Positions 12,372 through 31,493 of a stretch of 64,000 nucleotides of DNA are shown one piece after another. The stretch is from the NCBI GenBank assembly GCA_021771715.1, contig JAETOO010000003.1, forward strand, positions 1 through 64,000, given 5' to 3'. This DNA comes from Oscillospiraceae bacterium (GTDB lineage: Bacteria > Bacillota > Clostridia > Lachnospirales > Lachnospiraceae). The position numbers and the translations under genes are program-made. Position 1 is the stretch's first letter; every line of letters starts with the position of its first letter. The notes beneath the pieces were generated by a model. That model was not told where the DNA came from. It searched no databases and saw only the letters and a program-made list of their open reading frames with translations.

Positions 12372-12400
12372 TTGACAGGAATAATACACTATGCTATAGT
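12372..12400 (+). promoter_or_regulatory. Promoter of the GH39/Opp operon
   Basis: TTGACA (12372-12377) and TATAGT (12395-12400) are spaced by 17 bases. The transcript would carry a leader of about 215 bases. AT-rich sequence at 12540-12600 could hold a second start. Confidence 0.65.
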
Positions 12401-12505
12401 TGTAAAAAATGACGAAATAAATAGCCGAAAATGAGGGTAAATCAGGTTCGAAGGCTCTTTTTGCGCTTTCTGAATTGTGCAGTAATTATAATGAGCACCT
12501 TTATT

Positions 12506-12521
12506 TTGGGTTAAACCAAAT
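12506..12521. promoter_or_regulatory. Candidate operator 2 for the GntR/LacI-type regulator
   Basis: TTTGGGTTAAACCAAA is an almost perfect inverted repeat, located between the promoter at 12372 and the regulator gene. It shares TTAAACCAA with the site at 12273. Confidence 0.4.
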
Positions 12522-12622
12522 GCGGTTTTTGTTAGATATATACAAATTATTTGAACAAATTTTTTTGTTAAAATTATACAATATTTCCATGAAAAGAGAC
12601 AGGATTTGATGGGAGTGAGGAC

Positions 12623-13666
12623 ATGAATCAGGAGAACAAAGCGATCGCGGATGTGCTGCGCCAGGAGGTGCGGCAGCTTCAGTCAGACCGGCTGATCAAG
12701 CTGGAATCAGAGCGGAAGCTGGAGCAGAGGCTGAATGTCGGGAGACAGCGGATCCGTGAGGTGATTAACCAGCTGGTCTCAGAAGGGCTGCTGATCAAGT
12801 ATGAGGGAAAAGGGACCTACATCGCGCCGATTGTGAAGAACAAGCATGTGAATCTGCTCAGCTCCCCGACGATCAAGCCGAACGATCCGTTCTACAACCG
12901 GATGCTGATGGAGCTGACCGGCTACGCGGCGAAGAACAGTGTCAACATGATTCCGCTGACGATGGACACGCTGCACAACGGCGACATGCTTGCGCCGGTG
13001 CTGATGATCGGAAAATTTGAGGAGGAGGATATCGAGAAGATCAAGCAGGTCTACTCGAAGATTATCTCCTTTGAGAACTACCCCAATCACGACGATTTCG
13101 TGCAGATTTATTTTGATCACTTTAAGATAGGCATCAATGCAGCGAAGGTACTGGCTGCTTATGGGCATAAAAAGGTAATTCATATCACAGGGCCGGACCG
13201 GTATGCGTCGGCACTCTACCGCAAAAACGGGTTCATCCGGGGCTCCAGGAAAAACGGGATCGAGCATGTCGTTCTGGAGAGCAAGATGAACTTCAAGGGC
13301 GGCTTCGTCCTCGCGGACCAGGTGGCAAACCTGGTGGTGCACCGGCAGTTCACGGCGGTCTTTGCGGCAAATGACTGGATGGCGATCGGACTGATCCAGG
13401 CGCTGCGCGACAAGGGTGTTGACGTGCCGAATCAGCTGTCGGTTCTGAGCGTCGACAACATCCCGCTGGCCGGTCAGTTTGCTCCGGGACTGACGACGTA
13501 TTCGCTGGACGCGAATATGATGATTGCGGAGTGTTTCTCCCTGATGGATGTGGCGGAGAGCTGCACCGAGGATATCCAGTTCCACAAGCGGATCATCCTG
13601 CAGCCGCGGCTGATCACCAGGGACACCTTGAAAAAGCTCGAGACAGGCAGTACCAGGGGTGTTTGA
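12623..13666 (+). CDS. GntR-HTH / LacI-type sugar-binding transcriptional regulator
   Basis: This 347-aa protein joins a GntR winged helix (residues 1-70, including SERKLEQRLNVGRQRIREVI and the YEGKGTYIAP wing) to a periplasmic-binding-protein-like effector domain (about 75-340). The layout resembles AraR of Bacillus. The effector half contains FAANDWMAIGLIQALRD and LSVLSVDNIP, typical of LacI/GalR sensors. It is the first gene of the operon, 34 bp from the binding protein gene, so it probably represses the operon until the imported sugar or a derivative binds. The palindromes around GGTTTAAACCAA are candidate operators. ATG 12623 follows GGGAGTGAGGAC. Confidence 0.87.
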   Translation: MNQENKAIADVLRQEVRQLQSDRLIKLESERKLEQRLNVGRQRIREVINQLVSEGLLIKYEGKGTYIAPIVKNKHVNLLSSPTIKPNDPFYNRMLMELTGYAAKNSVNMIPLTMDTLHNGDMLAPVLMIGKFEEEDIEKIKQVYSKIISFENYPNHDDFVQIYFDHFKIGINAAKVLAAYGHKKVIHITGPDRYASALYRKNGFIRGSRKNGIEHVVLESKMNFKGGFVLADQVANLVVHRQFTAVFAANDWMAIGLIQALRDKGVDVPNQLSVLSVDNIPLAGQFAPGLTTYSLDANMMIAECFSLMDVAESCTEDIQFHKRIILQPRLITRDTLKKLETGSTRGV

Positions 13667-13699
13667 TGTAGCAAAAATATAGGAAAGTGAGGGAACGAA

Positions 13700-15643
13700 A
13701 TGAAGAAACGAAGAATCATGGCATTACTGCTCAGTGCGTGTATGGCAGTCGGCACACTGGGGACAGGCACCGCGGCATTTGCCGAGGAGAACCGCGGCGG
13801 CGTGGGAGACGGACCGTACAAGGAGTCCCCGCTGGTACATGAGCTGGTGGAGAGCGGCGAGCTGCCCGCGATCGAGGAGCGTCTTCCGGAGGAGCCGGCA
13901 GTCGTGGAGGTCGACGAGATCGGTATCTACGGCGGCACCTACGTCGGAGCGGCGTTCGGGCCGAGCACCGGACAGGTGGACACCGAGGGTCTGAGATTCC
14001 AGTCCATCCTGACGATCGAGAAGGATCTGAAGACCTTCAAGCCGAACCTGATCCAGAGCTACGAGATCAACGACGAGTACACCGAGTTCACGCTTCACCT
14101 GAGAAAGGGCATGAAGTGGTCGAACGGCGATCCGTTCACGACCGAGGACTGGATGTTCTGGTACAATGACATCCTGATGAACACGGACATCAACTCCTCC
14201 GTGGACGCGGTTTACTGCAGCAACGGCACGCCGATGACGTACGAGGCGCCGGACGAGTACACGCTCGTGATCAAGTTCACCGAGCCGAACCCGGCATTCG
14301 AGATCACGATGGCGCGTTACTCCACCAACATCATCCGGACGTTCTTCGCGCCGAAGGCATATCTGTCGAAGTGGCACAAATCGTACAATGAGGATGCGGA
14401 CGCGCTGGCGAAGGAAGAGGGCTATGAGTCCTGGATCCTCTGCTTCAAGGCACATCTGGACAACAGCCAGGCGCAGACCGACTGTGAGGCGCCGGATGTC
14501 TATCCGTGGGTGCTGGACCGCATCGACTCCAACGGCAACAAGTTCTTTGCGCGCAACCCGTACTACCACGTAGTGGACCAGGAGGGCAACCAGCTCCCGT
14601 ACATCGACGAGCAGGAAGCGCTGATCGTGCAGGACAAGGACGTCCGCGCGCTGAAGCTGATCAGCGGCGAGATCCACGCGGCAGGCGAGAACCCGCTCCC
14701 GGTATCGGACTACACGATGCTCAAGGAGAATGAGGCGAACGGCGACTACGCGGTCTATCTGTTCGAGAACACGAGAGGTTCTGACTGCGCGTTCACGTTC
14801 AACATCACAGACCAGGATCCGAACCTCCGCGAGATCTTCTCGAATGTGAAGTTCCGCCAGGCGATGAGCTACGCGCTCGACCGCAACACCATCAACGAGA
14901 CACTGTACTATGGCAAGGGCACCGTCAGACAGGCGACCGCATCGGCGGACTGCTCCTTCATGAAGGATGAGTTCGAGAATGCATTTATCGAGTACGATGT
15001 GGACAAGGCAAACGCGCTTCTCGATGAGTGCGGCTACGAGTGGAACAGCGCGCACACCGTGCGTCTGATGCCGAACGGCGAGGAGTTCAACCTGGTGCTC
15101 GAGACGATCGAGGAGTTCATTCCGATGTCCGAGATGGCGTGCGAGTACTGGACGGCAGTCGGCATCAAGGTGACGCTGAAGCAGGTGGAGCGCTCCTACT
15201 ATCTGGAGAGAGGCATTGCGAATGAGCGCGACATGCAGGCGTTCACGATGGACAGCGTCGGCGAGTTCAACCTGAGCGGCGCGGCATTCAGCCGTCTGCG
15301 CCCGGGCAACGCGTATGACGATCTGGAGTTCATGAGAGCGTACAAGGACTGGTGGGACAGCGACGGAGCACAGGGAGAGCAGCCGCCGGAGGAGATCGAT
15401 CAGCTCCGCAACGACTGCCTGAGATTCGGCACGATGTCTGCTGCGGATGAGGAGTACGCATCTCTCGGTGAGAGCATCCTGCAGAGAGTCAGCGATCAGT
15501 GCTGGTTCATCGGTGTGACCGTATCTCCGAGACTTGTCATCATCAGCAACCGTCTCGGCAACACGCCGACCGAGGGTACTTTCGCAAATGACTACAACTT
15601 CTGGAAGCCGTATCGCGGTGATACCTGGTATTTCAAGTATTGA
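13700..15643 (+). CDS. Family-5 solute-binding protein of an Opp-type ABC transporter
   Basis: This 647-aa secreted protein begins with a signal peptide cleaved near TAAFAEE; there is no lipobox Cys. The rest is an SBP_bac_5 domain, with IYGGTYVGAAFG near the start, FTLHLRKGMKWSNGDPF, and VKFRQAMSYALDRNTI in the second lobe. Family-5 proteins bind peptides, but this branch, linked to glycosidase genes, usually binds oligosaccharides or glycosides. It sits directly after the regulator and before the permease genes. The 248-bp gap to the first permease holds a hairpin (15801-15825) that probably sets a high ratio of binding protein to permease. Anchoring to the cell surface without a lipid is unexplained. 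Confidence 0.88.
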   Translation: MKKRRIMALLLSACMAVGTLGTGTAAFAEENRGGVGDGPYKESPLVHELVESGELPAIEERLPEEPAVVEVDEIGIYGGTYVGAAFGPSTGQVDTEGLRFQSILTIEKDLKTFKPNLIQSYEINDEYTEFTLHLRKGMKWSNGDPFTTEDWMFWYNDILMNTDINSSVDAVYCSNGTPMTYEAPDEYTLVIKFTEPNPAFEITMARYSTNIIRTFFAPKAYLSKWHKSYNEDADALAKEEGYESWILCFKAHLDNSQAQTDCEAPDVYPWVLDRIDSNGNKFFARNPYYHVVDQEGNQLPYIDEQEALIVQDKDVRALKLISGEIHAAGENPLPVSDYTMLKENEANGDYAVYLFENTRGSDCAFTFNITDQDPNLREIFSNVKFRQAMSYALDRNTINETLYYGKGTVRQATASADCSFMKDEFENAFIEYDVDKANALLDECGYEWNSAHTVRLMPNGEEFNLVLETIEEFIPMSEMACEYWTAVGIKVTLKQVERSYYLERGIANERDMQAFTMDSVGEFNLSGAAFSRLRPGNAYDDLEFMRAYKDWWDSDGAQGEQPPEEIDQLRNDCLRFGTMSAADEEYASLGESILQRVSDQCWFIGVTVSPRLVIISNRLGNTPTEGTFANDYNFWKPYRGDTWYFKY

Positions 15644-15800
15644 TCGCTGCAGACAGCGCGGTGAGAGAAGTCTGAAACGCTCCGCATAGAAGAAATGGCG
15701 AAAAACATGCAGGGCAGAACGTATCATAGCTGTAAAGCGGACAAGAGGACAGTCTGACTGTGATCCGATCTACAAGGCTGGATGATACAGATGCGGTGGC

Positions 15801-15825
15801 GCGGCTCCCGGCTTCGGAGAGCCGC
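15801..15825 (+). terminator. Intercistronic hairpin between binding protein and permease genes
   Basis: GCGGCTC (15801-15807) pairs with GAGCCGC (15819-15825) without a T-run. It probably stabilises the upstream mRNA segment or causes partial termination. Nothing else is seen in 15644-15890. Confidence 0.45.
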
Positions 15826-15890
15826 AGCCATTGCCCTGTGGAGTCCTGCAGCAGCTACGCTGTCTGAAAGAGAAGGAGGGGCATGGCTTA

Positions 15891-16874
15891 ATGAAAAAAT
15901 ACATAGGTAAGAGATTCATCTATATGCTTGTTTTGCTGGCGATCATGTCTGTGTTCGCGTTCGTTGTGATACAGCTTCCGCCAGGAGATTATCTGACATC
16001 GTATATCTCGAATCTGCAGCAGCAGATGGGACAGGTGGACCAGTCCGTCATCGACAGCCTGAAGCAGCAGTACGGGATGGACAAGCCGATGTGGCAGCAG
16101 TATTTCCTGTGGATGCGGAATATGTTCCGCGGGGACTTCGGACAGTCCTTCCAGTGGAACCAGCCGGTGAAGACGCTGATCGCCTCGCGGATGCCCATGA
16201 CGATCGTGCTGTCGCTGATCACGCTGCTCTTCGCGTATGCGCTCGCGATCCCGATCGGCATCTACTCCGCCAGACACCAGTACTCGATCGGGGACTATCT
16301 GGCGTCGATTCTGGGCTTCGTGGGACTGGCGACGCCGAGCTTTTTCCTGGCACTGCTTCTGATGTACTACAGCAACCGCTACTTCGGCCTCAGCGTGGGC
16401 GGCTTCTACTCCCCGGAGTTCCAGAACGCGCCCTGGAGCCTGGCGCGGCTGTGGGATCTGTGCAAGCACCTGCCGATTCCGGTGATCGTCATCGGCCTTG
16501 CCAGCATGGCAAATGTTATCAGAATACTAAGAGCGAGCCTTCTGGATGAGCTGAAGCGGCCGTACGTGGTGGCGGCCAGAGCCAGAGGACTGAAAGAGAA
16601 CAAGATGATTTACAAATATCCGGTGCGCGTGGCGCTGAACCCGATTATCAGCTCGATCGGGAGCATCCTGCCGGGAATCGTGTCGGGCGCGACGGTGACG
16701 GCGATCGTGCTGGACATCCCCACCGTCGGTTCCCTGTTGTACAATGCATTGCTCTCTCAGGACATGTACCTGGCAGGAGCGAGCGTGCTGATGCTGACGG
16801 CCATCACGATTGTGGGCACGTTCATCTCAGACATCCTCCTGGTGGTGATTGATCCGAGAATCCGGCTGCAGTAG
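15891..16874 (+). CDS. Opp/Dpp-type ABC transporter permease (DppB-like)
   Basis: This 327-aa integral membrane protein has six helices and the binding-protein-dependent permease signature around RARGLKENKMIYKYPVRVAL. It is the B-type permease with a long periplasmic loop after the first helix. It forms the channel with the C-type permease encoded next. ATG 15891 is used because the conserved MKKYIGKRFIYM start follows; an upstream in-frame ATG has no good ribosome binding site. Confidence 0.9.
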   Translation: MKKYIGKRFIYMLVLLAIMSVFAFVVIQLPPGDYLTSYISNLQQQMGQVDQSVIDSLKQQYGMDKPMWQQYFLWMRNMFRGDFGQSFQWNQPVKTLIASRMPMTIVLSLITLLFAYALAIPIGIYSARHQYSIGDYLASILGFVGLATPSFFLALLLMYYSNRYFGLSVGGFYSPEFQNAPWSLARLWDLCKHLPIPVIVIGLASMANVIRILRASLLDELKRPYVVAARARGLKENKMIYKYPVRVALNPIISSIGSILPGIVSGATVTAIVLDIPTVGSLLYNALLSQDMYLAGASVLMLTAITIVGTFISDILLVVIDPRIRLQ

Positions 16875-16891
16875 AGGAAGGAGGAAATCAC

Positions 16892-18013
16892 ATGGCGTTT
16901 GGAAAGAAGAAAAAGGCTGCCTCTGCGGAAGAAGCAATGTACATGGAGACACAATGGCAGCTCATTGTCAGAAAATTCAAGAAGCACAAGCTGGCAATGG
17001 TCGGTCTTATTATTCTGATAATATTTTACACACTCGGCATTTTCAGCGAGTTCTTTGCGACGCAGGACATCGCAAAGAGAAGTACGGCGGCGATCAGCAT
17101 GCCGCCGACCGCGATCCACTTCGTGGACGAGGAGGGGCACTTTTCCCTGCAGCCGTTCGTCTACGGCAAGAAGCAGGAGGAGGACCCGGTCACCTGGAGA
17201 AAGTACTACGTGGACGACACCAGCGTGAAGCACAAGCTGCGCTTCTTCTACAAGGGCGACCCGTACAAGCTGCTCGGCTTCATCCCGGGCGACATCCATT
17301 TCTTCGGGACACCGGAGCCGGACGTGTTCTTCCCGTTCGGGACGGACTCGTCGGGTAGAGATCTGTACTCCCGCGTGCTCAGCGCGCTCCGCATCTCTCT
17401 GAGTACGGGACTCGTGGGCGTGTTCTTCACCTTCATCCTGGGCTGCCTGTTCGGAGGAATCTCAGGCTTCTACGGAGGAAAGGTGGACACGGTGATTCAG
17501 CGGATTATCGAGTTCCTGATGTCGATGCCGAGCATCCCGCTGTGGATGGCGCTGGCGGCGGCGTTCCCCACGAACTGGTCCTCCCTGAAGACGTACTTTG
17601 CGATCACGATCATCCTGTCGCTGATCGGCTGGACGTCCCTGGCGCGCGTGGTGCGAGGCAAGCTCCTGGAGCTGCGGAACGAGGACTTTGTGACGGCGGC
17701 CCGCGTCTCCGGCGCGACGGACCGGTATATCATCCTGAAGCATCTGCTCCCGTCATTCAGCAGCTATCTGATCGTCAACATCACGCTGGCGATCCCGACG
17801 ATGATCCTCTCGGAGACCTCCCTGAGCTTCCTCGGAATCGGGCTGACACCGCCGATCGTCAGCCTGGGCGTGCTGCTGCAGGATGCGCAGAGCATCAACA
17901 CGATCTCGATGTATCCGTGGCTGATGATTCCTGGCTTCTTCGTCGTTGTCTCCGTGCTGGCCTTCAACTTTGTGGGTGACGGGCTTCGCGATGCGGCGGA
18001 TCCATATAAATAG
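16892..18013 (+). CDS. Opp/Dpp-type ABC transporter permease (DppC-like)
   Basis: This 373-aa protein has a cytoplasmic N-terminal OppC_N segment and first helix (LAMVGLIILIIFYTLGIF). A long extracytoplasmic insertion with GTDSSGRDLYSRVL follows, then five more helices. The coupling motif is ARVSGATDRYIILKHLLP. The insertion between helix 1 and the core is typical of the oligosaccharide branch. It begins 17 bp after the B permease behind AGGAAGGAGG. Confidence 0.9.
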   Translation: MAFGKKKKAASAEEAMYMETQWQLIVRKFKKHKLAMVGLIILIIFYTLGIFSEFFATQDIAKRSTAAISMPPTAIHFVDEEGHFSLQPFVYGKKQEEDPVTWRKYYVDDTSVKHKLRFFYKGDPYKLLGFIPGDIHFFGTPEPDVFFPFGTDSSGRDLYSRVLSALRISLSTGLVGVFFTFILGCLFGGISGFYGGKVDTVIQRIIEFLMSMPSIPLWMALAAAFPTNWSSLKTYFAITIILSLIGWTSLARVVRGKLLELRNEDFVTAARVSGATDRYIILKHLLPSFSSYLIVNITLAIPTMILSETSLSFLGIGLTPPIVSLGVLLQDAQSINTISMYPWLMIPGFFVVVSVLAFNFVGDGLRDAADPYK

Positions 18014-18021
18014 GAAAGGAA

Positions 18022-19035
18022 ATGGGTGAGCGTATGGACGATTATATTTTACAGGTCAATCATCTGAAGACCTATTTCAAGCTGGATACGGGGATCCTGA
18101 AGGCGGTCGACGACGTGACGTTCAAGCTGAGAAGGAATGAGACGATCGGCATCATCGGAGAGTCGGGCTGCGGAAAGAGCGTGACGGCCCACTCGATCCT
18201 GCGCACGGTGCAGAATCCGGGCAAGGTGCTGGGCGGGGAGATTCTCTACAATGACGGCAGCGGCGAGGTGGATCTGGTGAAGTACGGCGCCGACAGCAAG
18301 GAGATGCGCAGGCTGCGCGGCAGCGAGATCTCGATGGTATTCCAGGAGCCGATGGCCAGCCTGTCCCCGGTGTACACGATCGGCGCGCAGATGATGGAGG
18401 CCGTGACGGTCCACCAGGAGAAGAAGGACAAGAAGGCGGCGAAGGAGCTGTGCATGGAGATGCTCAAGGCGGTGGGGATGCCGAACCCGGAGCAGAAGTT
18501 CAAGTCCTACCCGCACCAGATGTCCGGCGGACAGTGCCAAAGGGCGATGATCGCGCTGGCGATGGTGAACCGGCCGAAGATTCTGATCGCGGACGAGCCG
18601 ACTACGGCGCTGGACGTGACGGTGCAGGCCCAGATCACGGATCTGATGAAGCAGTTCCAGCGGGAGTACAACATGTCGATCATCTACATCACGCACGACA
18701 TGGGCGTCATCGCCGAGATGGCGGACACGATCGCGGTGATGTACCTGGGACGTGTGGTGGAGAGCGGCAGCGCGCGGGCGATCTTCAAGAATCCGATCCA
18801 CCCGTACACGAGAGGACTCCTGAACTCGATGCCGGTGCTGGGGAGAAAGACGCGGGAGCGGCTGCAGGCGATCGAGGGCAACGTCCCGGTACCGCTGGAC
18901 CCGCCCGAGGAGTGCGGATTCTGCTCGCGGTGCGCGGAGCGCTTCGAGGAATGTGACAAGAGCATCCCGCCGCTTGTTGAGGTGGAGCCGGAGCACTTTG
19001 TGAGATGCTTCCGCCACCAGGCTGCGGCGAAGTGA
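18022..19035 (+). CDS. Opp/Dpp-type ABC transporter ATPase (DppD-like)
   Basis: This 337-aa ATPase has Walker A GESGCGKS, the Q-loop region FQEPMASLSPVY, signature MSGGQCQRAMIA, Walker B ILIADEPTTALDVT and the H-loop ITHDM. The C-terminal oligo_HPY extension carries Cys residues (CGFCSRCAERFEEC) like those of the Fe-S-containing OppD/DppD group. It pairs with the second ATPase encoded next. ATG 18022 is used; ATG 18034 is possible. Confidence 0.9.
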   Translation: MGERMDDYILQVNHLKTYFKLDTGILKAVDDVTFKLRRNETIGIIGESGCGKSVTAHSILRTVQNPGKVLGGEILYNDGSGEVDLVKYGADSKEMRRLRGSEISMVFQEPMASLSPVYTIGAQMMEAVTVHQEKKDKKAAKELCMEMLKAVGMPNPEQKFKSYPHQMSGGQCQRAMIALAMVNRPKILIADEPTTALDVTVQAQITDLMKQFQREYNMSIIYITHDMGVIAEMADTIAVMYLGRVVESGSARAIFKNPIHPYTRGLLNSMPVLGRKTRERLQAIEGNVPVPLDPPEECGFCSRCAERFEECDKSIPPLVEVEPEHFVRCFRHQAAAK

Positions 19036-19055
19036 CAGGCAGAAGGGAGGACAAC

Positions 19056-20105
19056 ATGTCGGAAGATGTGAAAAAGACACAGAAGCCACTGCTGGAAATC
19101 ACAGGCCTGAAGAAATATTATCCGATTGAGGCCGGGATCGCGAAGCGGCAGATCGGCCTGGTGAAGGCAGTGGATGATATCACATTGAGCATTAACAAGA
19201 ACGAGGTGCTCGGCGTCGTCGGGGAGTCCGGCTGCGGAAAGACGACGCTCGGCAGAACGATTCTGCGGATCATCGAGCCCACGGAGGGCACGGTCAAATT
19301 CCACTTTGACGATCAGGAGATCGACTTTACCGCCCTTGGCAAGAAGGAAATGCGGAAGATGCGCCGCGACATCCAGATGATCTTTCAGAATCCGTACACG
19401 TCGCTGAACCCGCGGATGACGATCCTCGACATCGTGGCGGAGCCCATGCGGCTGGCCGGGGGCTACACGGAGGAGCAGATCACGGACCGCGTGAAGTACC
19501 TGATCAGCAAGGTGGGGCTGGAGATCAAGCATCTGAACCGCTATCCGCATGCGTTCAGCGGCGGGCAGCGTCAGAGAATCGGGATCGCGCGTGCGCTGGC
19601 CTGCGGACCGAAGTTCGTGGTGGCCGACGAGGCCGTGTCGGCGCTGGACGTGTCGATCCAGGCGCAGATTCTGAACCTCCTGCAGGAGCTGAAGGAGGAG
19701 TATGACCTGACCTACATGTTCATCGCGCACAATCTGAGTGTGGTGGAGCACATCTCAGACCGCGTGTGCGTGATGTACCTGGGGAAGGTCGTGGAGCTGG
19801 CAGAGACGGAGGAGCTGTTCTACCACCCGCTCCACCCGTACACGGAGGCGCTGATGTCGGCGATTCCGGTGGCTGACCCCACGGTCAAAAATGAGCGCAT
19901 TATGCTGCCGGGCGAGGTGGGCAATGCGGCGAACCTCCCGGAGGGATGCTGCTTCCACCCGCGCTGCAGATATGCAAAGGAGTGCTGCAAAAAGGAATGC
20001 CCGTCTCTTACGGAGGTGGGAAACGGCCACTTTGTGGCGTGCCATTTTGCCAAGCAGCTGTCTCTGGACGGAATCGGAGAGCTGAAGGTAAAGAAAAGTG
20101 AATAA
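19056..20105 (+). CDS. Opp/Dpp-type ABC transporter ATPase (DppF-like)
   Basis: This 349-aa ATPase has Walker A GESGCGKTT, signature FSGGQRQRIGIARAL, Walker B VVADEAVSALDVS and the H-loop IAHNLS. The oligo_HPY tail with Cys residues (CCFHPRCRYAKECCKKEC) is present. Together with the DppD-like subunit it powers uptake by the B/C permeases. ATG 19056 follows AAGGGAGGACAAC; an in-frame upstream start would overlap the previous gene. Confidence 0.9.
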   Translation: MSEDVKKTQKPLLEITGLKKYYPIEAGIAKRQIGLVKAVDDITLSINKNEVLGVVGESGCGKTTLGRTILRIIEPTEGTVKFHFDDQEIDFTALGKKEMRKMRRDIQMIFQNPYTSLNPRMTILDIVAEPMRLAGGYTEEQITDRVKYLISKVGLEIKHLNRYPHAFSGGQRQRIGIARALACGPKFVVADEAVSALDVSIQAQILNLLQELKEEYDLTYMFIAHNLSVVEHISDRVCVMYLGKVVELAETEELFYHPLHPYTEALMSAIPVADPTVKNERIMLPGEVGNAANLPEGCCFHPRCRYAKECCKKECPSLTEVGNGHFVACHFAKQLSLDGIGELKVKKSE

Positions 20106-20124
20106 AGTAATGGAGGAAGGGAAC

Positions 20125-21783
20125 ATGAGCAGACAGGTAAACATCAACGTGGACGCATCCAAGGTGACAGGCGCGCAGGAGCATCTGTGGCGCTATATCG
20201 GATACGACGAGTGCAACTACAGCTACATCCCGGAGGGAATCGAGCTGCTGAACAAATTTGCGGCTCTGGGCGATGCGCCGTACTACTTCAGGACACATTT
20301 TATGTTCTGTACCGGCAACTGCCACGGCACCTACAAGTTCGGATCCACGAATATTTACTGGGAAAACGAGGACGGAGAGGCAGTTTACGACTTTACATAC
20401 TATGACATGATTATTGATTCCTTTATCAAGACGGGGAACAAGCCGTTTGTGGAGCTGGGCTTCATGCCGATGGCGCTCTTCGACCGCTCGTACGTGCGGT
20501 CCGTGGAGGGGAACTGGGACAACTACAGCCAGTACAAGGAGATCGGATGGACCTGCCCGCCGAAGGATTACGACAAGTGGCACGCGTTCATGGAGGCGCT
20601 GATCACACACCTGGTGGAGCGCTACGGCGCGAAGGAGGTGGAGACCTGGTACTTCGAGCTCTGGAATGAGCCGGATATCTTCTACTGGAGCGGCACGGCG
20701 GCGGAGTACTGCAGGCTCTACGACTACACGGAGCATGCGGTCCATGCGGTGCTCCCGTCGCTTCGCCTCTCAGGCCCGGCTGTGACGGGGATCTATGAGG
20801 GGGGAAGAGCGCAGAAATTCTTCCGCTTCTTCCTGGGCCACTGCCGTGACGGCGCGAACTTCTGCACGCAGGAGAAGGGGACGAGACTGGACTTCATCAC
20901 CTTCCATGTGAAGGGCGGCGGCTTCCCGTTTGAGATGCACGCGGCGAAGGCGGTTCCGTCCGTGGAGAGTCTGGTGCACCAGGTGAAGCTGGGTCTGGAT
21001 GCGATCGTGGAGTATGGCTACGGCGACTGCGAGGTCGTGCTGTCCGAGGCGGACCCGGACGGCTGGGCTGCGGGCGGCGTGTACGACAACGCAAACATGA
21101 TTTTCCGGAACACGGAGTACTATGCGACGTATGTGGCCTCCACGTACGAGAAGATCGACCAGCTCTGCGGACAGTACGGGATCAAGGTGCGGCCGCTGGC
21201 ATGGGCGTTCATGTTCCCGGGCGAGCGCTGCTTCGAGGGCACGCGGACGTTCACGACACAGGGAATCGACAAGGCGGTCTTCAACATGTTCAAGATCTAC
21301 GGATCTCTGGGCGACGAGAAGCTGGCGTTTACAAGCGACGGGGCGGAGCACCTCGATTTCCTCGAGGAGCCGGACATCGGAGTGAAGAACCACAGCCAGT
21401 ACACCGGCGAGGGCGAGGAGACGGATGTGTCCGGGTTCGCGGTCAGAGGCAAAAACGGGGAGACGCAGATTGTCGTGTACAGCCACAACAACGACCGGGA
21501 TCTGAAGGAGGAGCGCGAGGTGGTGCTGACCGTCGCAGGGCTCACGGGGGACTGCGCGCAGGTAGAGCACTACCGGATCGACGCGGAGCACTCGAACGCG
21601 TACGCCGAGTGGCTGCGCCAGGGCAGCCCACTGTTCCCGGCAGGAGAGCAGTACGCGGCGATCAAGGCGAGAGACGGGCTGGAGAAGCTGACCGGGGACC
21701 AGAAGGTAGCGGTCGCGGACGGCAAGATGGAGCTGCGGTTTACGATGCCGACGCACGGGGTGTCGTATCTGGTGATTCGATAG
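20125..21783 (+). CDS. GH39-like glycoside hydrolase (beta-xylosidase family), cytoplasmic
   Basis: This 552-aa protein is a (beta/alpha)8 glycosidase with a C-terminal beta domain. WYFELWNEPD carries the predicted acid/base Glu, and VVLSEADPDG the likely nucleophile Glu. Both sites and the overall layout fit GH39 beta-xylosidases, though the nucleophile context is atypical. No signal peptide is present, so it should hydrolyse a glycoside after ABC import. The substrate could be a xyloside or another pentoside; the sequence does not settle it. ATG 20125 follows GGAGGAAGGGAAC; the open frame upstream overlaps the ATPase gene. It is 19 bp from the transporter genes and 32 bp from the next enzyme. 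Confidence 0.8.
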   Translation: MSRQVNINVDASKVTGAQEHLWRYIGYDECNYSYIPEGIELLNKFAALGDAPYYFRTHFMFCTGNCHGTYKFGSTNIYWENEDGEAVYDFTYYDMIIDSFIKTGNKPFVELGFMPMALFDRSYVRSVEGNWDNYSQYKEIGWTCPPKDYDKWHAFMEALITHLVERYGAKEVETWYFELWNEPDIFYWSGTAAEYCRLYDYTEHAVHAVLPSLRLSGPAVTGIYEGGRAQKFFRFFLGHCRDGANFCTQEKGTRLDFITFHVKGGGFPFEMHAAKAVPSVESLVHQVKLGLDAIVEYGYGDCEVVLSEADPDGWAAGGVYDNANMIFRNTEYYATYVASTYEKIDQLCGQYGIKVRPLAWAFMFPGERCFEGTRTFTTQGIDKAVFNMFKIYGSLGDEKLAFTSDGAEHLDFLEEPDIGVKNHSQYTGEGEETDVSGFAVRGKNGETQIVVYSHNNDRDLKEEREVVLTVAGLTGDCAQVEHYRIDAEHSNAYAEWLRQGSPLFPAGEQYAAIKARDGLEKLTGDQKVAVADGKMELRFTMPTHGVSYLVIR

Positions 21784-21815
21784 AATAAAGCAAATGCAGA
21801 TAGGAGTGGATCAGA

Positions 21816-22493
21816 ATGAAGGATTTGAGCAGCAAGACACTGGGAATCATTCACGCTTCCCACATTACGATCAAGGCGATGGAGCCGTACATTGCGCAGT
21901 ACATTCCCAAGGTGCAGATCATGCATCTGTGCGACGACACGATTCAGAGAGACAACATCAAGGCCGGCGCCGGCGTGATTCCGAAGGTAAATTACTTTAA
22001 GTTTGCGGAGTATGCGCACAATCTGGAGGAGGCCGGTGTGGATCTGATTCTGCTGGCGTGCTCCACGTTCAACTACGCGGCAGAGCTGGGCCGTCCGCTG
22101 GTGAACACGCCGATCGCGCAGATCGACCGCCCGATGATGGAGAAGGCGGTCCGCACCGGAAAGAAGATCGGCCTGCTGGCGACGCTGGCGACGACGGTTC
22201 CGTCCTCAGAGCGGCTGCTGGACATCGCGGCGGCGGAGGCAGGGGTCGAGATCGAGCGGAAGACCGTGCTGTGCAGCGAGGCGTTTGAGGAGTACTCGAA
22301 GGGAAATATCGAGAAGCACAATGAGATTCTGGTGGACGCCATCGACAAGCTGTCGGACGAGGTGGACTGCATCGTGATGGCGCAGCTCTCCATGTCGGCG
22401 CTGGCGCCGTACCTGAAGGAGACGAAGGTGCCGGTGTACAACAGCGGCGAGACCGGATTCCTGCGGGTGCGCGAGATGCTGGAAAACATGTAG
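21816..22493 (+). CDS. Asp/Glu/hydantoin racemase-superfamily protein
   Basis: This 225-aa protein has the racemase fold. The first catalytic Cys lies in LILLACSTFNYA. At the place of the second Cys, normally in a VLGC/VLAC context, the sequence is IVMAQLSMSAL, so that Cys is missing. One-Cys relatives include decarboxylases and isomerases, so racemisation by two-base chemistry is unlikely. It is translated between the glycosidase and the transketolase, with 21 bp to the latter. A role in processing a sugar-acid or keto intermediate is plausible but inferred. Confidence 0.75.
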   Translation: MKDLSSKTLGIIHASHITIKAMEPYIAQYIPKVQIMHLCDDTIQRDNIKAGAGVIPKVNYFKFAEYAHNLEEAGVDLILLACSTFNYAAELGRPLVNTPIAQIDRPMMEKAVRTGKKIGLLATLATTVPSSERLLDIAAAEAGVEIERKTVLCSEAFEEYSKGNIEKHNEILVDAIDKLSDEVDCIVMAQLSMSALAPYLKETKVPVYNSGETGFLRVREMLENM

Positions 22494-22514
22494 AAGGTGA
22501 GGGAGGAAGCAGAA

Positions 22515-23345
22515 ATGTTGGATCAGAGGGAAAAGCAGGCGCTCATGGAGCGCGCGTGCGAGATCAGAAAGGATATTGTAACCATGATCGGCGTGGGCAA
22601 GGCCGGCCATCTGGGAGGCTCCTGCTCGCTGGCGGACATTGTGACCGTGCTGTATTTTCACAAGATGCGCCACGATCCGAAGAACCCGGACATGCGCGAC
22701 CGCGACCGTTTCATCCTGAGCAAGGGACACGCGGCGATCGTGCAGTACGCGGCGCTGATGGAGTGCGGCTATTTTGACAAGGAAGCTTCCATCCACACCC
22801 TGAAAAAGCTGGGCAGCCATCTGCAGGGGCACCCGGACATGCGCAAGCTGGTGGGGATCGAGGCGAATACAGGATCGCTGGGACAGGGCGTATCCTTGGC
22901 TGCGGGCCTGGCCGCAGGGCTTCGGCTGGATCAGATTGACAGCAAGGTGTACGTGGCAGTCGGCGACGGCGAGCTGGCCGAGGGACAGCTCTGGGAGGCG
23001 TTTATGGCTGCGTCCAACTTCGGTCTCGACAATCTGCGCGTGATCATCGACCGCAACGGGCTCCAGGCGACCGGAAGAACCGCGGATCGCTTTAAGATCG
23101 GAAATCTGGAAGACAAGATGAGATCGTTTGGCTTTGAGGTGCTCGTGATTGACGGACACGACATGGACCAGATTGCCGGAGCGCTGGATCGCGCGGACGA
23201 GGTGAAGGGAAAACCGGTGTGCATCATTGCAGATACCGTGAAGGGCAAAGGGATTCCTTTCGCAGAGGGAGTGGCAGCCTTCCACAATGGAACGCTGACG
23301 CAGGAACAGTACCAGGAGGCACTGCGGGTGCTGGAGGAGGCGTGA
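22515..23345 (+). CDS. Transketolase N-terminal (TPP-binding) subunit
   Basis: This 276-aa subunit has the TPP motif, GDGELAEGQLWEA through to IIDRNGLQ, and the substrate-side His in KAGHLGGS and SKGHAAI. It corresponds to the N-terminal half of a full transketolase. Split transketolases occur as dedicated enzymes in sugar-catabolic operons, such as those for apulose phosphate or sulfofructose, as well as in central metabolism. ATG 22515 follows GGGAGGAAGC. Confidence 0.92.
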   Translation: MLDQREKQALMERACEIRKDIVTMIGVGKAGHLGGSCSLADIVTVLYFHKMRHDPKNPDMRDRDRFILSKGHAAIVQYAALMECGYFDKEASIHTLKKLGSHLQGHPDMRKLVGIEANTGSLGQGVSLAAGLAAGLRLDQIDSKVYVAVGDGELAEGQLWEAFMAASNFGLDNLRVIIDRNGLQATGRTADRFKIGNLEDKMRSFGFEVLVIDGHDMDQIAGALDRADEVKGKPVCIIADTVKGKGIPFAEGVAAFHNGTLTQEQYQEALRVLEEA

Positions 23346-23346
23346 G

Positions 23347-24276
23347 ATGAGTATGCATAATCAGAGAAAAGAATATGGAAAAATGCTGGTGGAGCTGGGC
23401 GAGCAGAATCCGGATATCGTGGTTCTGGAGGCCGATCTCGGAAAATCGACCATGAGCTGCATGTTTGAGGAGAAATTTCCGGAGCGCTATTTTGAGATGG
23501 GAATCGCCGAGCAGAATATGACCAGCTTCGCGGGCGGGCTGGCTCTGGCGGGCAAGATTCCGTTCACCAACACGTTCGCGGTGTTCGCGACGGGGCGGGC
23601 GTACGACCAGATCCGCCAGAGCATCGCGACGGCGAAGCTCAATGTGAAGATTGTGGGCTCGAGCAGCGGAATGTCCGATTTCGGCGACGGCGCGACGCAC
23701 CAGTCGGTGGACGATATTGCGATCATGAGCGCGATCCCGAATCTGACCGTGTTCACGCCGTGCGACGGCGTGGAGGTGCGCAAGGCCGTGGAGGCCGCTG
23801 TGGCTGTGGACGGGCCGTGCTACATCCGGCTGTGCAGAAACGATCTGGAAGACATTTTCCCGGAGGATGCCAAGTACCGGGTCGGTGAGCCGGTGGTGCT
23901 GCGGGACGGGACGGACGTGGCCGTGTTCACGCACGGAATCATGGCGCACGGCGCCCTGGAGGCTGCGAAGCTGGCCAAGGAGAAGGGCATCAGCGTGAAG
24001 GTCGTTCACATCCCGACGGTGAAGCCGCTTAACGAAGAGGCGGTCAAGGCATGTGCAGCGGGCATGAAGGGCATCGTCGTCTGCGAGGAGAGCAACATCC
24101 GCGGCGGACTGAACATGCTGATCAGCTATATCCTGCGCGGCAGCGCGATTCCGATGGAGAGCGTCGCGGTCATGGACGTGTTCGGACAGTCGGCGTCCTC
24201 GCACGCGGAGCTGCTGCAGGAGTATGGGCTGGACGCGGGGAGTATCTTGGAGAAGATTGAGAAGTTGACTAAATAA
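23347..24276 (+). CDS. Transketolase C-terminal (pyrimidine-binding/transketolase C) subunit
   Basis: This 309-aa partner supplies the catalytic Glu that activates TPP (ERYFEMGIAEQNM). It also has the substrate-binding GDGATHQSVDDIAIM stretch and the transketolase C domain (about 190-309). Its start codon directly follows the stop of the N-terminal subunit gene (TGAGATG), so translation is coupled and a 1:1 complex is expected. Its place in an inducible operon argues for a dedicated substrate rather than housekeeping. Confidence 0.92.
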   Translation: MSMHNQRKEYGKMLVELGEQNPDIVVLEADLGKSTMSCMFEEKFPERYFEMGIAEQNMTSFAGGLALAGKIPFTNTFAVFATGRAYDQIRQSIATAKLNVKIVGSSSGMSDFGDGATHQSVDDIAIMSAIPNLTVFTPCDGVEVRKAVEAAVAVDGPCYIRLCRNDLEDIFPEDAKYRVGEPVVLRDGTDVAVFTHGIMAHGALEAAKLAKEKGISVKVVHIPTVKPLNEEAVKACAAGMKGIVVCEESNIRGGLNMLISYILRGSAIPMESVAVMDVFGQSASSHAELLQEYGLDAGSILEKIEKLTK

Positions 24277-24326
24277 GTGGAAAAGAGCCAGGCATAGATA
24301 CAGGCTGTGGGCGTGTACAGTGAGTG

Positions 24327-24365
24327 CGCCGCAAAAAGCAGGGATTGTGTGTGCGATTTGCGGCG
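24327..24365 (+). terminator. Intercistronic hairpin after the transketolase genes
   Basis: CGCCGCAAA (24327-24335) pairs perfectly with TTTGCGGCG (24357-24365). No T-run follows. It lies in the 143-bp gap before the reductase gene and may tune expression of the last two genes. Confidence 0.5.
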
Positions 24366-24419
24366 TGCTTGTATGATATTGCGGGCATGTAGATTAGGAT
24401 TCGGATAGGAGGAAGCAGT

Positions 24420-25304
24420 ATGAGAGCAGGATTTATCGGACTTGGGATCATGGGGAAGCCGATGGCGAAGAATCTGCTGCGGGCAGGCTACGCGGTGCAG
24501 GTTTACGATCACCATGAGGAGTCGATTCAGGAGGTGGCAGCCGAGGGCGGCGTTCCGTGCGGGAGCGCGAGGGAGGCGGCCGATGGCGCAGATGTGATCT
24601 TCACGATGCTGCCGAACTCCCCGCAGGTGAAGACCGCGCTGCTGGAGAAGGACGGCGTGCTGGAGAGCATGAAGAAGGGAGCGATCGTGGTGGACATGAG
24701 CTCCATCGACCCGACCGTCTCCATCGAGCTGGAGAAGGCAGTGACTGCAGCGGGCGGCGAGATGATCGACGCGCCGGTGAGCGGCGGGGAGCCGAAGGCG
24801 ATCGACGGGACGGTATCGTTCATGTGCGGCGGCAAGGAGGATGTGTTTGAGAAGGTGAAGCCGATGCTGGCGAAGATGGGCCGCGATGTGACGCTGGTGG
24901 GCCCGATCGGGAGTGGCAACATGACCAAGCTGGCGAACCAGATCATCGTGGCAGTCAATATCGCGGCGCTCTCGGAGGCGATGGTGCTGGCGAGCAAGTC
25001 CGGCGTGAACCCGGAGAACGTGTACCGGGCGATCCGCGGCGGACTGGCAGGGAGCACCGTGATGGACGCGAAGGCGCCGATGATGCTCGACCGCAACTTC
25101 AACCCGGGCTTCCGCATCGAGCTGCACATCAAGGATCTGACGAACGCGATGAACGCGGCGAAGGCGGTGGACATGGATCTGCCGATGGCGGAGAAGGTGC
25201 TGGACATGATGAAGCAGCTGCAGGAGAACGGAATGGGCAAATGCGACCACAGCGCCGTCGTGCGGTACTACGAGGAGCAGGAAGGCGTGGAGGTCAAGCG
25301 GTAG
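24420..25304 (+). CDS. garR: 2-hydroxy-3-oxopropionate (tartronate semialdehyde) reductase
   Basis: This 294-aa protein belongs to the beta-hydroxyacid dehydrogenase family. It has the Rossmann motif GFIGLGIMGKPMAKNL, substrate motif DAPVSGGEPKAIDGT, catalytic Lys motif GNMTKLANQ and the C-terminal GFRIELHIKDL. Long blocks match E. coli GarR/GlxR as I know them, so NAD(P)H-dependent reduction of tartronate semialdehyde to D-glycerate is the best guess. HIBADH-family homologues also reduce other C3 and sulfo-C3 aldehydes. It sits 12 bp ahead of the epimerase/isomerase gene. Confidence 0.85.
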   Translation: MRAGFIGLGIMGKPMAKNLLRAGYAVQVYDHHEESIQEVAAEGGVPCGSAREAADGADVIFTMLPNSPQVKTALLEKDGVLESMKKGAIVVDMSSIDPTVSIELEKAVTAAGGEMIDAPVSGGEPKAIDGTVSFMCGGKEDVFEKVKPMLAKMGRDVTLVGPIGSGNMTKLANQIIVAVNIAALSEAMVLASKSGVNPENVYRAIRGGLAGSTVMDAKAPMMLDRNFNPGFRIELHIKDLTNAMNAAKAVDMDLPMAEKVLDMMKQLQENGMGKCDHSAVVRYYEEQEGVEVKR

Positions 25305-25316
25305 GAGGAGACGAGG

Positions 25317-26114
25317 ATGAGGCTGGGATGTTGTGTCAATATGCTGGGGAATGCGGATGATCCGATCGGGAGAAGGTATATCCGGGCTGTGAAGGAGGCG
25401 GGCTACGACTACGTGGAGCTGCCGCTGGCACAGGTGATGGAGCTTAGTGAGCAGGAATTTGGGGGATTGCTGGATGAACTTGACGCGGCCGTGCTTCCCT
25501 GCCGGTGCTGCAACAACTTTTTCCCGGCCTCTGTGCGGCTGACGGGAGAGAACGCCGATCTCGCGGCGGCGGAGGATTACATTGCGAGGGCAGTAAAGCG
25601 CGCCGCGCGGTTGGGGGCAGAGCGGATCGTGTTTGGCAGCAGCGGCGCGAAGAATGTGCCGGAAGGCTTCTCCCATGAGCGGGCGTTCGAACAGATCGTG
25701 GAGGTGCTGCGGCTGGCAGACCGGTACGTGCAGCCGGAGCATATCTGCATCGTGATCGAGCCGCTGAACCGGAAGGAGAGCAATATCATCCTGAATCTGA
25801 CCGACGGAGAGCGCCTGGTAAAGGCGGTGGACCGCCCGTCCGTCCGGCTGCTGGTGGACTACTACCATTTCCGGATGGAGGAGGAGTCGCCGGAGGTGCT
25901 CCGTCAGGCGATGCCGGACATCCGCCACGTGCACTTCGCCGAACCGCAGGGGAGAAGCTTCCCCACCGGGGAGTCCGCGGACTACGAATCGTTCTTCGAG
26001 ATCCTGCGGGAAGGCAATTACACGGGGGGCGTCAGCATAGAGGCGTACGCGTCCTGCCCAAAGCAGGAGCTCGCAAGGGCGGTGCTCGTGCGGAAGTACT
26101 TCGAAGAAAACTAG
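25317..26114 (+). CDS. Sugar phosphate isomerase/epimerase (xylose isomerase-like TIM barrel)
   Basis: This 265-aa TIM-barrel protein belongs to PF01261. Metal ligands can be placed: Glu in VIEPLNRKESN, Asp and His in LVDYYH, His in HVHFAEP, Glu in SIEAYA. The family includes hydroxypyruvate isomerase, D-tagatose/psicose 3-epimerase and D-apiose isomerase. Pairing with a GarR-like reductase recalls the hyi-glxR pair, which would convert hydroxypyruvate to tartronate semialdehyde and then glycerate. EPLNRKESN is also common in ketose 3-epimerases, so the reaction is left open. It is the last gene of the operon and is followed by palindromic element copy 2. Confidence 0.82.
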   Translation: MRLGCCVNMLGNADDPIGRRYIRAVKEAGYDYVELPLAQVMELSEQEFGGLLDELDAAVLPCRCCNNFFPASVRLTGENADLAAAEDYIARAVKRAARLGAERIVFGSSGAKNVPEGFSHERAFEQIVEVLRLADRYVQPEHICIVIEPLNRKESNIILNLTDGERLVKAVDRPSVRLLVDYYHFRMEEESPEVLRQAMPDIRHVHFAEPQGRSFPTGESADYESFFEILREGNYTGGVSIEAYASCPKQELARAVLVRKYFEEN

Positions 26115-26464: not shown

Positions 26465-27385
26465 ATGGATAAAATTGCTGAGAGGATTCTGCGAAAGATA
26501 GGAATCCCTGATTTTTTTGACAGAGTTTGCGCTTTGGACACGGCGGATTTTAATTCTGCTTTGCTGAAGCTTTTTTCTGTCAGGACGGCGCAGTCCTCGC
26601 CGCAGAAGGTCCTGCGTACGTTTCGGGAAAACCGCTTTGTCGTTCCCGGCCGTGTTGACCCGGTGAAGCTGCATCAGCTGGAGTTCGACCTGCTGACAAG
26701 AGCCTCGGAGGCCGGCATGGAAACGAAATTGCTGTCCCCGGTTGCGCCGATGGGGAGCTGCAGCGTATTCGGGTGCGTCAGCCAGAATAACGTGGTGAGC
26801 GCTGCGCGGAATGTGGAGGTGCTGTCCGACCCGACGAACGTCCTGGCCATTATGCTCGCAAATGAGATCATGGGCAACCGGGTGGACAGTACCGCTGGTA
26901 CGCATTATGCGGCAACGGCGCGCGTAGTCAGAGGGCAGCATGTGCGGGGGAACCATTTGTGCGCGCACTTTGGACTGTTCTGCATTGTCTCCACGGCGAA
27001 GGACAGGGGCTCCTATCAGTGCGAAAAAGAACTGTTAACGTATCACCTTCAATTCTATAAGCGTTTGCTGGAGACAACGTATGATGGCAAAACAGCCATC
27101 CTCCTGCGGCGAAGAACCGGGTACACAGCGTATGAGGACTTTTTTGAGAGAATGTACTCCGCAGTGCAGGAGCTCTTTCCTGACAGTTCGATTTCTGTCG
27201 ATCTTGAGAGCGAGCAGAACCACTATTACAAAGGACTGAATTTCAAACTTTATATACAGAAGGACGGAGAGACAATCGAGATCGGGGACGGCGGTTTTGT
27301 CGATTGGATCGGTAAAATGACAGGAAATAAAAAAGACCGCTGTTTCATAAGCAGTCTCGGGCTGGAGCGATTATTGCTGTTTTAG
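26465..27385 (+). CDS. Class II aminoacyl-tRNA synthetase-core-like protein, function unknown
   Basis: This 306-aa protein ends in GLERLLLF, like motif 3 of class II aminoacyl-tRNA synthetases. A central stretch, AATARVVRGQHVRGNHLCAHF, looks like motif 2. There is no anticodon-binding or editing domain, and it is shorter than any complete synthetase of this class. Stand-alone synthetase cores have been recruited for amino-acid activation, tRNA-dependent modification and regulation (for example HisZ). I cannot choose among them. ATG 26465 follows AGAGAGGGGGATCC. It is monocistronic, with a structured leader and its own terminator. Confidence 0.55.
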   Translation: MDKIAERILRKIGIPDFFDRVCALDTADFNSALLKLFSVRTAQSSPQKVLRTFRENRFVVPGRVDPVKLHQLEFDLLTRASEAGMETKLLSPVAPMGSCSVFGCVSQNNVVSAARNVEVLSDPTNVLAIMLANEIMGNRVDSTAGTHYAATARVVRGQHVRGNHLCAHFGLFCIVSTAKDRGSYQCEKELLTYHLQFYKRLLETTYDGKTAILLRRRTGYTAYEDFFERMYSAVQELFPDSSISVDLESEQNHYYKGLNFKLYIQKDGETIEIGDGGFVDWIGKMTGNKKDRCFISSLGLERLLLF

Positions 27386-27394
27386 ATGAATCTG

Positions 27395-28729: not shown

Positions 28730-28741
28730 AGGAGAGAAAAT

Positions 28742-29653: not shown

Positions 29654-29677
29654 AGGATTCAGTCAGGACGCCGTGCA

Positions 29678-29737
29678 AGCCACAGACCCATCTGCTACGC
29701 AGATTATCCGCTGCTTACGCAGCTCCTGTCTGTGGCT
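29678..29737 (+). other. Three-way-junction RNA structure between permease and binding protein genes
   Basis: AGCCACAGAC (29678-29687) pairs perfectly with GTCTGTGGCT (29728-29737). The enclosed sequence forms two hairpins, ATCTGC-TAC-GCAGAT and GCTGC-TTAC-GCAGC. It probably protects the downstream binding protein mRNA from 5' decay or marks a processing site. Confidence 0.6.
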
Positions 29738-29767
29738 GAACTGTAAAAAACAAAAAGGAGAATTGCT

Positions 29768-31312: not shown

Positions 31313-31313
31313 A

Positions 31314-31424
31314 CGGGATTCCGGCAAGTGGAGCTGCGTAGTACGGAAAGCGGGATTCCAGCAAGTGGAGTTGCGCAGTATGGCATACGGGATTCCGGCA
31401 AGGAGAGCCGCGCAGTACGACAAA
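31314..31424 (+). repeat. 37-bp tandem repeat, three copies, after the binding protein gene
   Basis: Units at 31314-31350, 31351-31387 and 31388-31424 begin CGGGATTCCGGCAAG and start two bases after the stop codon. Confidence 0.9.
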
Positions 31425-31427
31425 CAG

Positions 31428-31457
31428 GGCTGCCAGGGAGAACCATCTCTGGCAGCC
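31428..31457 (+). terminator. Hairpin after the repeat array
   Basis: GGCTGCCAG (31428-31436) pairs with CTGGCAGCC (31449-31457). Only TTT follows, so termination is probably partial, raising the first binding protein over downstream genes. Confidence 0.55.
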
Positions 31458-31493
31458 TTTCATAAGGGAAGACGGAGAGGATGTGGAAGCGAT

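Follow-up and report, generated by a model that had tools for sequence, protein, structure and literature searches.

A candidate clostridial operon for acidic-sugar glycosides built around a split transketolase and a tartronate semialdehyde reductase

The apulose 4-phosphate pathway of Carter et al. (2018) reportedly uses a split transketolase and requires a kinase and a phosphorylated branched ketose. Two other systems also resemble the one considered here. In the sulfofructose transketolase, according to the accessible text of PMC11659671, a His that probably corresponds to E. coli His461 is changed to Asp and both active-site Arg remain; for E. coli TktA, the accessible text of PMC12016104 reports that the R358I/H461S/R520Q variant has better activity on 5-keto-D-gluconate, giving tartaric semialdehyde. 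Here we analyse a 64,000-nucleotide stretch of an Oscillospiraceae bacterium genome (GenBank assembly GCA_021771715.1, contig JAETOO010000003.1, positions 1 to 64,000 of the forward strand; hereafter the window), in which twelve plus-strand genes at 12623-26114 form a single block encoding a regulator, an Opp-type importer, a GH39 glycosidase, a racemase-fold protein, a two-subunit transketolase, the reductase GarR and a TIM-barrel protein. We propose, with a probability of roughly 45%, that this block is one operon for a glycoside with an acidic sugar, which would be degraded by a transketolase route to D-glycerate. A search of open-access papers found no description of this gene set, with most subscription journals outside that search.

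The split transketolase clade and its GarR partner

Compared with E. coli TktA, the window pair keeps H26, H66, H100, D155, N185 and H261 together with E411 and H473, split over two chains, and the catalytic residues are likewise retained in the clade copies that were aligned. In the clade to which it belongs, Ser replaces His461, a residue that we take to face the substrate phosphate, within the motif GSS.G.SD[FY]GDG[AS]THQ. Ser461 is present in 32 of 32 aligned clade copies, a count that leaves out locus L190 (cut by a contig end), and the active-site His461 by which a housekeeping transketolase is recognised is absent from the clade; 13 other split pairs carry His (eight), Tyr (two) or Ser (three) at this position. 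Both Arg residues (positions 358 and 520 of E. coli TktA) are retained, which would suit a phosphorylated acceptor, and of the three engineered TktA changes the natural clade carries H461S only. In a tree built from both subunits, 30 of 30 signature rows fall on one side of a branch with support of 100/99; since many tree rows had been chosen by motif, it is the tree and not the motif that carries the claim of a distinct clade.

The genome encodes four N subunits of the split type, and a fifth match is more remote. The paralogue on contig C15 is of the housekeeping type, with His461, and that on contig C2 adjoins a 2-hydroxyacid dehydrogenase gene. An earlier interpretation of the window made from its letters alone (the sequence-only reading) had proposed a dedicated transketolase, to be doubted if it were the only one in the genome; we find a separate, Ser461-bearing clade and three other split pairs, one of them housekeeping, which supports a dedicated enzyme. 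A plasmid search with tktC returned no match at or above 60%.

Among 391 genomes sampled from the class, a search for the motif as DNA found it in 20, and a reversed-motif control gave no match among the matches listed. Twenty of the 23 motif matches were used, leaving out the window, a genome already represented by L041 and a contig-edge match; with 13 earlier loci these make the 33 clade loci compared here. We find garR within 11 kb of the transketolase in 28 of the 33. Of the remaining five loci, two are cut short within 1.4 kb (L187 and L190), one lacks a recognisable N subunit (L188), and two (L198 and L200) belong to a single genome whose third copy has garR; near other split transketolases garR was found in 0 of 8 loci (flank at least 2.2 kb). 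Also close to the 33 clade loci are SDR dehydrogenases (one close type in nine, looser SDRs in six), MDR dehydrogenases of three types (10 loci), transporters (TRAP in five, GntP in two, TctA in one) and, in several cases, GH43 or GH51 genes. Judged by these genes, the neighbourhood looks like a sugar-acid module that would oxidise beside a terminal CH2OH, cut with transketolase and reduce the acid aldehyde. For many relatives the keto acid is probably formed by an SDR or MDR dehydrogenase acting on a sugar acid, an oxidation that would yield one NADH where GarR would spend one; in the window operon the GH39 and two putative isomerases probably take the dehydrogenase's place. Pattern searches around genomes G1393 and G1145 recovered only those genomes themselves (1/10 and 1/22).

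The operon's own reductase scores above two curated equivalog cut-offs for 2-hydroxy-3-oxopropionate reductase (435.4 vs 397 and 395.9 vs 340.75) and is 56% identical to E. coli GarR; we predict that it is a tartronate semialdehyde reductase, the type foreseen in the sequence-only reading. Identity to E. coli GarR is 55-73% across 27 module copies, those scanned pass the curated cut-offs, and the segments DAPVSGGEPKA, GN..KLANQ, GGLAGS and LH.KDL are retained. Fifteen of the 33 positions common to E. coli GarR and GlxR but not to YihU and YgbJ are conserved in 90% or more of the copies, a modest sign of GarR identity. A glycerate kinase of the GlxK family is encoded directly after the TIM-barrel gene in Eisenbergiella tayi and near the module in L192, and one of the DUF4147/MOFRL family directly after the TIM-barrel gene in L040 and 4.2 kb away in L191. 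That one kinase family is replaced by an unrelated one at the same place speaks for glycerate as the substrate. This genome has two PF02595 glycerate kinases, on other contigs.

A second group of split transketolases, comprising that of contig C2 (L149) and L050-L054, has HprA-like dehydrogenases adjoining in six of eight loci and, by similarity, a racemase-fold gene in three and a TctA-type transporter in three. It looks like a sister route to glycerate, which suggests that split transketolases have been paired with reductases that form glycerate on more than one occasion in evolution. Near the Tyr461 split transketolases of L053 and L054 lie genes for PdxA-type dehydrogenases, a glycerate kinase family and HprA-like proteins, perhaps a tetronate route.

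Gene order, control sites and the remaining enzymes

All twelve genes recur in the same order in E. tayi (L038); in E. porci (L036) the first eleven are present before the contig breaks off, and L040 has eleven in that order, lacking the regulator; with order kept in Eisenbergiella and L040, the grouping is not due to chance. A search with GH39 gave 13 loci. Of the 13 genomes, eight have a tktN at 60% identity or more, and in all eight a racemase-fold gene is present with identity of at least 81%; one has the racemase-fold gene without that transketolase, and four have neither. In Anaerocolumna (L045, L048) the regulator, importer, GH39, racemase-fold and TIM-barrel genes stand together, and the transketolase and GarR are encoded elsewhere in the genome, in a separate operon. 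In L048, from Anaerocolumna sedimenticola, the GH39 gene reads as two overlapping frames and is perhaps broken, or the product of a sequencing slip. A GH31 gene takes the place of GH39 beside the racemase-fold, transketolase, GarR and TIM-barrel genes of L041, L049, L113 and L114. Racemase-fold, TIM-barrel and glycosidase genes are joined with three transketolase lineages, namely the window type, that of L049 and that of Anaerocolumna, the two halves of the last lying apart.

Within the window block (Table 1) the intergenic gaps are 1-33 bp, except for 247 bp between the solute-binding protein gene and oppB and 143 bp between tktC and garR. Position 12372 is the start of the -35 box of the top-scoring promoter-like site, and 26114 is the stop of the TIM-barrel gene; at this stringency 15 promoter-like sites were found vs 6.8 expected. 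The operator-like palindrome TTTGGGTTAAACCAAA is the sole site in the window at three or fewer mismatches (0.15 matches expected), and its 12-bp core occurs in 5 of 209 loci (L036, L038, L039, L045 and L048), each time upstream of the same regulator. One control site for all twelve genes supports a single operon. Between the TIM-barrel gene and the next gene there is no plus-strand terminator-like site, the first standing at 27394, past that gene, so the 3' end of the operon is not fixed. Profile searches gave no match above cut-off to a sugar kinase, an aldolase or a XylA-type isomerase among the twelve operon proteins. The sequence-only reading had counted thirteen genes in one unit, from the regulator to the TIM barrel; the unit and its conservation stand, with twelve genes, as does its observation that no sugar kinase, aldolase or xylose isomerase is encoded there.

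Table 1. Positions of the genes and candidate control sites of the block in the window
Feature	Position	Strand	Basis or remark
Promoter-like site TTGACA-17-TATAGT	12372..12400	+	11/12 consensus positions, consensus match only
Palindromic operator-like site, 16 bp	12505..12520	+	upstream of regulator gene
Regulator: GntR DNA-binding domain and LacI-type sugar-sensor domain	12623..13666	+	PF00392, PF13377
Solute-binding protein family 5, Opp type (SBP_bac_5)	13700..15643	+	PF00496
OppB-type permease	15891..16874	+	PF00528, PF19300
OppC-type permease	16892..18013	+	PF00528, PF12911
OppD-type ATPase	18022..19035	+	PF00005, PF08352
OppF-type ATPase	19056..20105	+	PF00005, PF08352
GH39 glycosidase, probably cytoplasmic	20125..21783	+	PF01229
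Asp/Glu-racemase-fold protein, single-Cys subfamily	21816..22493	+	PF01177
Transketolase N-terminal subunit (tktN)	22497..23345	+	PF00456; thiamine diphosphate-site residues kept
Transketolase C-terminal subunit (tktC), Ser461, motif SDFGDG	23347..24276	+	PF02779, PF02780
GarR, predicted tartronate semialdehyde reductase	24420..25304	+	above two equivalog cut-offs
Metal-type TIM-barrel isomerase/epimerase (putative)	25317..26114	+	PF01261

The racemase-fold protein has C82 at the first site and AQ.SM at the place where the second Cys would presumably stand in the family; it is not a two-Cys racemase, in agreement with the one-Cys enzyme noted earlier. An alignment of 18 members of this branch, drawn from several phyla, shows D40, C82 and AQ.SM without exception. 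A structural model (predicted local distance difference test score, pLDDT, of 90.8), with aspartate racemase as nearest solved fold, confirms the fold only. Close relatives are rare, occurring in 1 of 397 genomes sampled from the family and 2 of 391 sampled from the class, the window's own included. Members of the single-Cys branch adjoin DUF1537-type acid-sugar kinases, BKACE, an OiaX-like protein and transketolases, which suggests that the branch has a general role in sugar-acid breakdown; a proton shift beside the carboxylate would be the natural guess for its reaction. Single-Cys racemase-fold genes were seen near DUF1537 kinases and BKACE, or near an OiaX-like RuBisCO-like protein, in L059, L063, L118 and L068, where profile hidden Markov models confirmed BKACE and DUF1537 in L118 only and the OiaX-like protein in L068.

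In the TIM-barrel protein the family's metal-site and catalytic residues are conserved (E148, D181, H206, E242). Its best curated match is IolO (5-keto-L-gluconate epimerase), at 92.5 bits vs a cut-off of 300; the score for Hyi is 69 vs 353.45 bits, and identity to E. coli Hyi is 23%, no higher than to an IolO-like protein. On this curated score and this identity we reject hydroxypyruvate isomerase as its likely function.

The GH39 protein starts MSRQVN and shows no signal peptide by eye. E182, K263, E308 and R374 are invariant in 11 relatives, and from the motifs we take E182 to be the acid/base and E308 the nucleophile. Overall the protein is closer to xylosidases, which phmmer and Foldseek rank first, and it shares with alpha-L-iduronidase a 33-residue stretch ending in H.KG, with the common pattern HC.DG.NF.T.E.G.RLD.I..H.KG and the Lys of H.KG (K263). 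Its model has a mean pLDDT of 76.5 and is weak at the active-site loops; the Foldseek scores of xylosidases and iduronidases are about equal. The residues R301, W304 and Y508 that mark a sulfoquinovosidase are absent from three GH31 proteins linked to the module, and module GH31 proteins also lack the Asp that YicI has at 306; the window operon itself has no GH31. These GH39 and GH31 features give a hint, no more, of an unusual and perhaps acidic sugar.

Beyond the block, the gene at 26465-27385 encodes a 306-residue protein with weak similarity only to HisS/HisZ, relatives of which (43-45% identity) directly follow GH39 in L041 and L047. At 27824-32582 we recognise by eye two permeases of the sugar ATP-binding cassette kind, a solute-binding protein and a BNR-repeat-like protein.

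Proposed pathway and its alternatives

In the pathway that we propose, the Opp system would import the glycoside and the GH39 would cleave it inside the cell, freeing a sugar acid that the racemase-fold and TIM-barrel proteins, using no cofactor beyond metal, would convert to the keto acid HOCH2-CO-CHOH-CHOH-COOH. The two-subunit transketolase would transfer the upper two carbons to a phosphorylated sugar as acceptor, turning glyceraldehyde 3-phosphate into xylulose 5-phosphate, and this cut would leave tartronate semialdehyde, which GarR would reduce to D-glycerate; a glycerate kinase, encoded within the operon in E. tayi and outside it in the window's genome, would feed glycolysis. The sequences themselves establish the gene set and its conservation, the transketolase clade with its motif, the identity of GarR and the glycerate kinases adjoining the module in some relatives; we infer the reactions, which acceptor is used, in what order the isomerases act and that the sugar has five carbons. 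A route with isomerases only before the transketolase and tartronate semialdehyde as product would require the freed sugar to have the formula of a five-carbon uronic acid. More broadly, and just as tentatively, we suggest that many Clostridia have a natural clade of split transketolases specialised for keto sugar acids without phosphate, which would supply GarR and glycerate kinase, and that the window lineage couples it to an acid-sugar glycosidase and a single-Cys racemase-fold sugar-acid isomerase, so that the keto acid would form without an oxidation step.

Several observations weigh against this proposal. To our knowledge, no glycoside of a five-carbon uronic acid is known that both GH39 and GH31 could cleave, and this is its weakest link. 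The iduronidase-like GH39 stretch suits a six-carbon uronic acid, and the context of some relatives points to six-carbon acids, with GntP and a gluconokinase-like FGGY kinase, the latter below its cut-off, near some of them and UxuA/UxuB near L195. In four genomes the GH39 occurs alone. Three of the 13 other transketolases also have Ser461, though in a different motif. The GarR tree separated neither copies with and without transketolase neighbours nor the module copies from E. coli GarR, only 1 of its 14 branches being well supported, a result that fits a shared substrate without proving it. Only 4 of 33 loci have a glycerate kinase close to the module, and the window operon is not one of them; a genome-wide search, which covered PF02595 and not the MOFRL type, detected that family in 10 of 16 module genomes. 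Glycerate kinase also lies near 4 of 8 other split transketolases, mostly with HprA-like dehydrogenases, and, being no rarer there, is not specific to the window clade.

The best-surviving alternative, though an unlikely one, is a six-carbon version in which GH39 would free an iduronate- or glucuronate-like hexuronic acid, which the isomerases would convert to a keto-uronate or 5-keto-hexonate and the transketolase would cut to tartaric semialdehyde or erythruronate, to be reduced to a tetronate by the GarR homologue; sulfoquinovose is handled in a similar way by the sulfo-transketolase route. The GH39 stretch and the near-equal Foldseek scores fit it, as do the GntP, UxuAB and gluconokinase-like neighbours, the below-cut-off match of the TIM barrel to the keto-gluconate epimerase IolO, one DUF1537 acid-sugar kinase gene in this genome and, in the accessible text of PMC12016104, the six-carbon keto acid used by the laboratory H461S enzyme. 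A hexuronic acid would give a four-carbon product that GarR would have to accept, however, and this GarR is a close homologue of tartronate semialdehyde reductase with glycerate kinases of two unrelated families as neighbours in four loci; nor was any tetronate pathway gene recognised among the twelve.

Plain pentoside use is improbable. Beta-xylosidases belong to GH39, and the module relatives L115, L116, L154, L185, L186 and L187 have GH43 and GH51 genes close by; xylose or arabinose could thus be freed, with the extra transketolase raising pentose phosphate capacity and the other genes accessory. But the operon has no pentose isomerase-kinase pair, His461 has been lost here in a genome that keeps a housekeeping pair, GarR is present, and acid transporters lie near the same pair elsewhere.

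Slightly more improbable still is a passage through hydroxypyruvate. The sequence-only reading had drawn a route through hydroxypyruvate, tartronate semialdehyde and glycerate, and its last two compounds agree with GarR and with the glycerate kinases of E. tayi, L040, L191 and L192. The TIM barrel would then be a hydroxypyruvate isomerase and GarR would finish the route, with hydroxypyruvate coming, for instance, from a branched acid of the 3-oxo-isoapionate type. The TIM-barrel gene does adjoin garR in window-type loci and in L192, and it has a weak partial Hyi match; the HprA-like dehydrogenases beside six of eight other split transketolases suit hydroxypyruvate in that second group, and a remote racemase-fold relative adjoins the OiaX-like protein, itself below the OiaX cut-off. 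A need for hydroxypyruvate is nonetheless not supported: the TIM barrel is far below the Hyi cut-off and as close to an IolO-like protein as to Hyi, and in 20 of the 28 loci where garR accompanies the transketolase neither a TIM-barrel relative nor Hyi was found within 11 kb, some of these contigs being cut. An apiose or apionate route was rejected for lack of a kinase in the operon, and the idea that L192 is an apionate locus found no support, its three candidate proteins having no curated match.

That the genes are diverged versions of an already described split-transketolase pathway, for apulose 4-phosphate or for sulfofructose, is very improbable, for although the general plan of two-subunit transketolase, isomerase and reductase is the same in the accessible text of PMC11659671, the operon matches neither gene set, as had been read earlier, and has no apulose kinase, the module-linked GH31 proteins of other loci lack the three sulfoquinovosidase residues, its GarR scores 190.7 vs a sulfolactaldehyde reductase cut-off of 348, and it has Ser where the sulfo-enzyme has Asp. 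Sulfoquinovose as the substrate was rejected on the GH31 residues and this reductase score.

Significance and comparison with known systems

If the five-carbon proposal is right, the operon would encode a catabolic route for an acidic sugar that needs neither a sugar kinase nor an aldolase. A single residue and a short motif would mark its transketolase clade for annotation pipelines, the clade would offer natural transketolases for keto-acid donors in biocatalysis, and nature would have made the same His461-to-Ser change as engineers. The proposal also gives a testable role to the widespread single-Cys branch of the Asp/Glu racemase fold, found beside acid-sugar genes in several phyla.

The E. 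coli gcl-hyi-glxR and garL-garR-garK systems share the GarR and glycerate kinase end but obtain tartronate semialdehyde from glyoxylate carboligase or the GarL aldolase, neither of which is encoded in the window operon. The apulose 4-phosphate pathway likewise employs a split transketolase in sugar catabolism, and differs in the kinase that the window operon lacks. Cleavage of 5-keto-D-gluconate, in the plant tartrate route and by engineered TktA, resembles the proposed route in its keto-sugar-acid donor, its acid-aldehyde product and, in the engineered enzyme, H461S (PMC12016104, PMC11066805). That enzyme also carries R358I and R520Q and gives tartaric semialdehyde (PMC12016104), and the accessible portions of the two sources name no dedicated natural bacterial clade.

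There is also a close likeness to the sulfo-transketolase pathway (SqwGH), which, in the accessible text of PMC11659671, has a two-subunit transketolase, a non-phosphorylated acid-bearing ketose (as would be used here), a change of the same active-site His, and a gene cluster that includes an isomerase and an aldehyde reductase for the last step. The window system differs in having Ser and not Asp, GarR and not sulfoacetaldehyde reductase, and linked GH31 proteins without the sulfoquinovosidase residues. Membership in that pathway thus fails on the residues and genes tested; by analogy, the window route would be the sulfo-transketolase plan with a carboxylate in place of the sulfonate.

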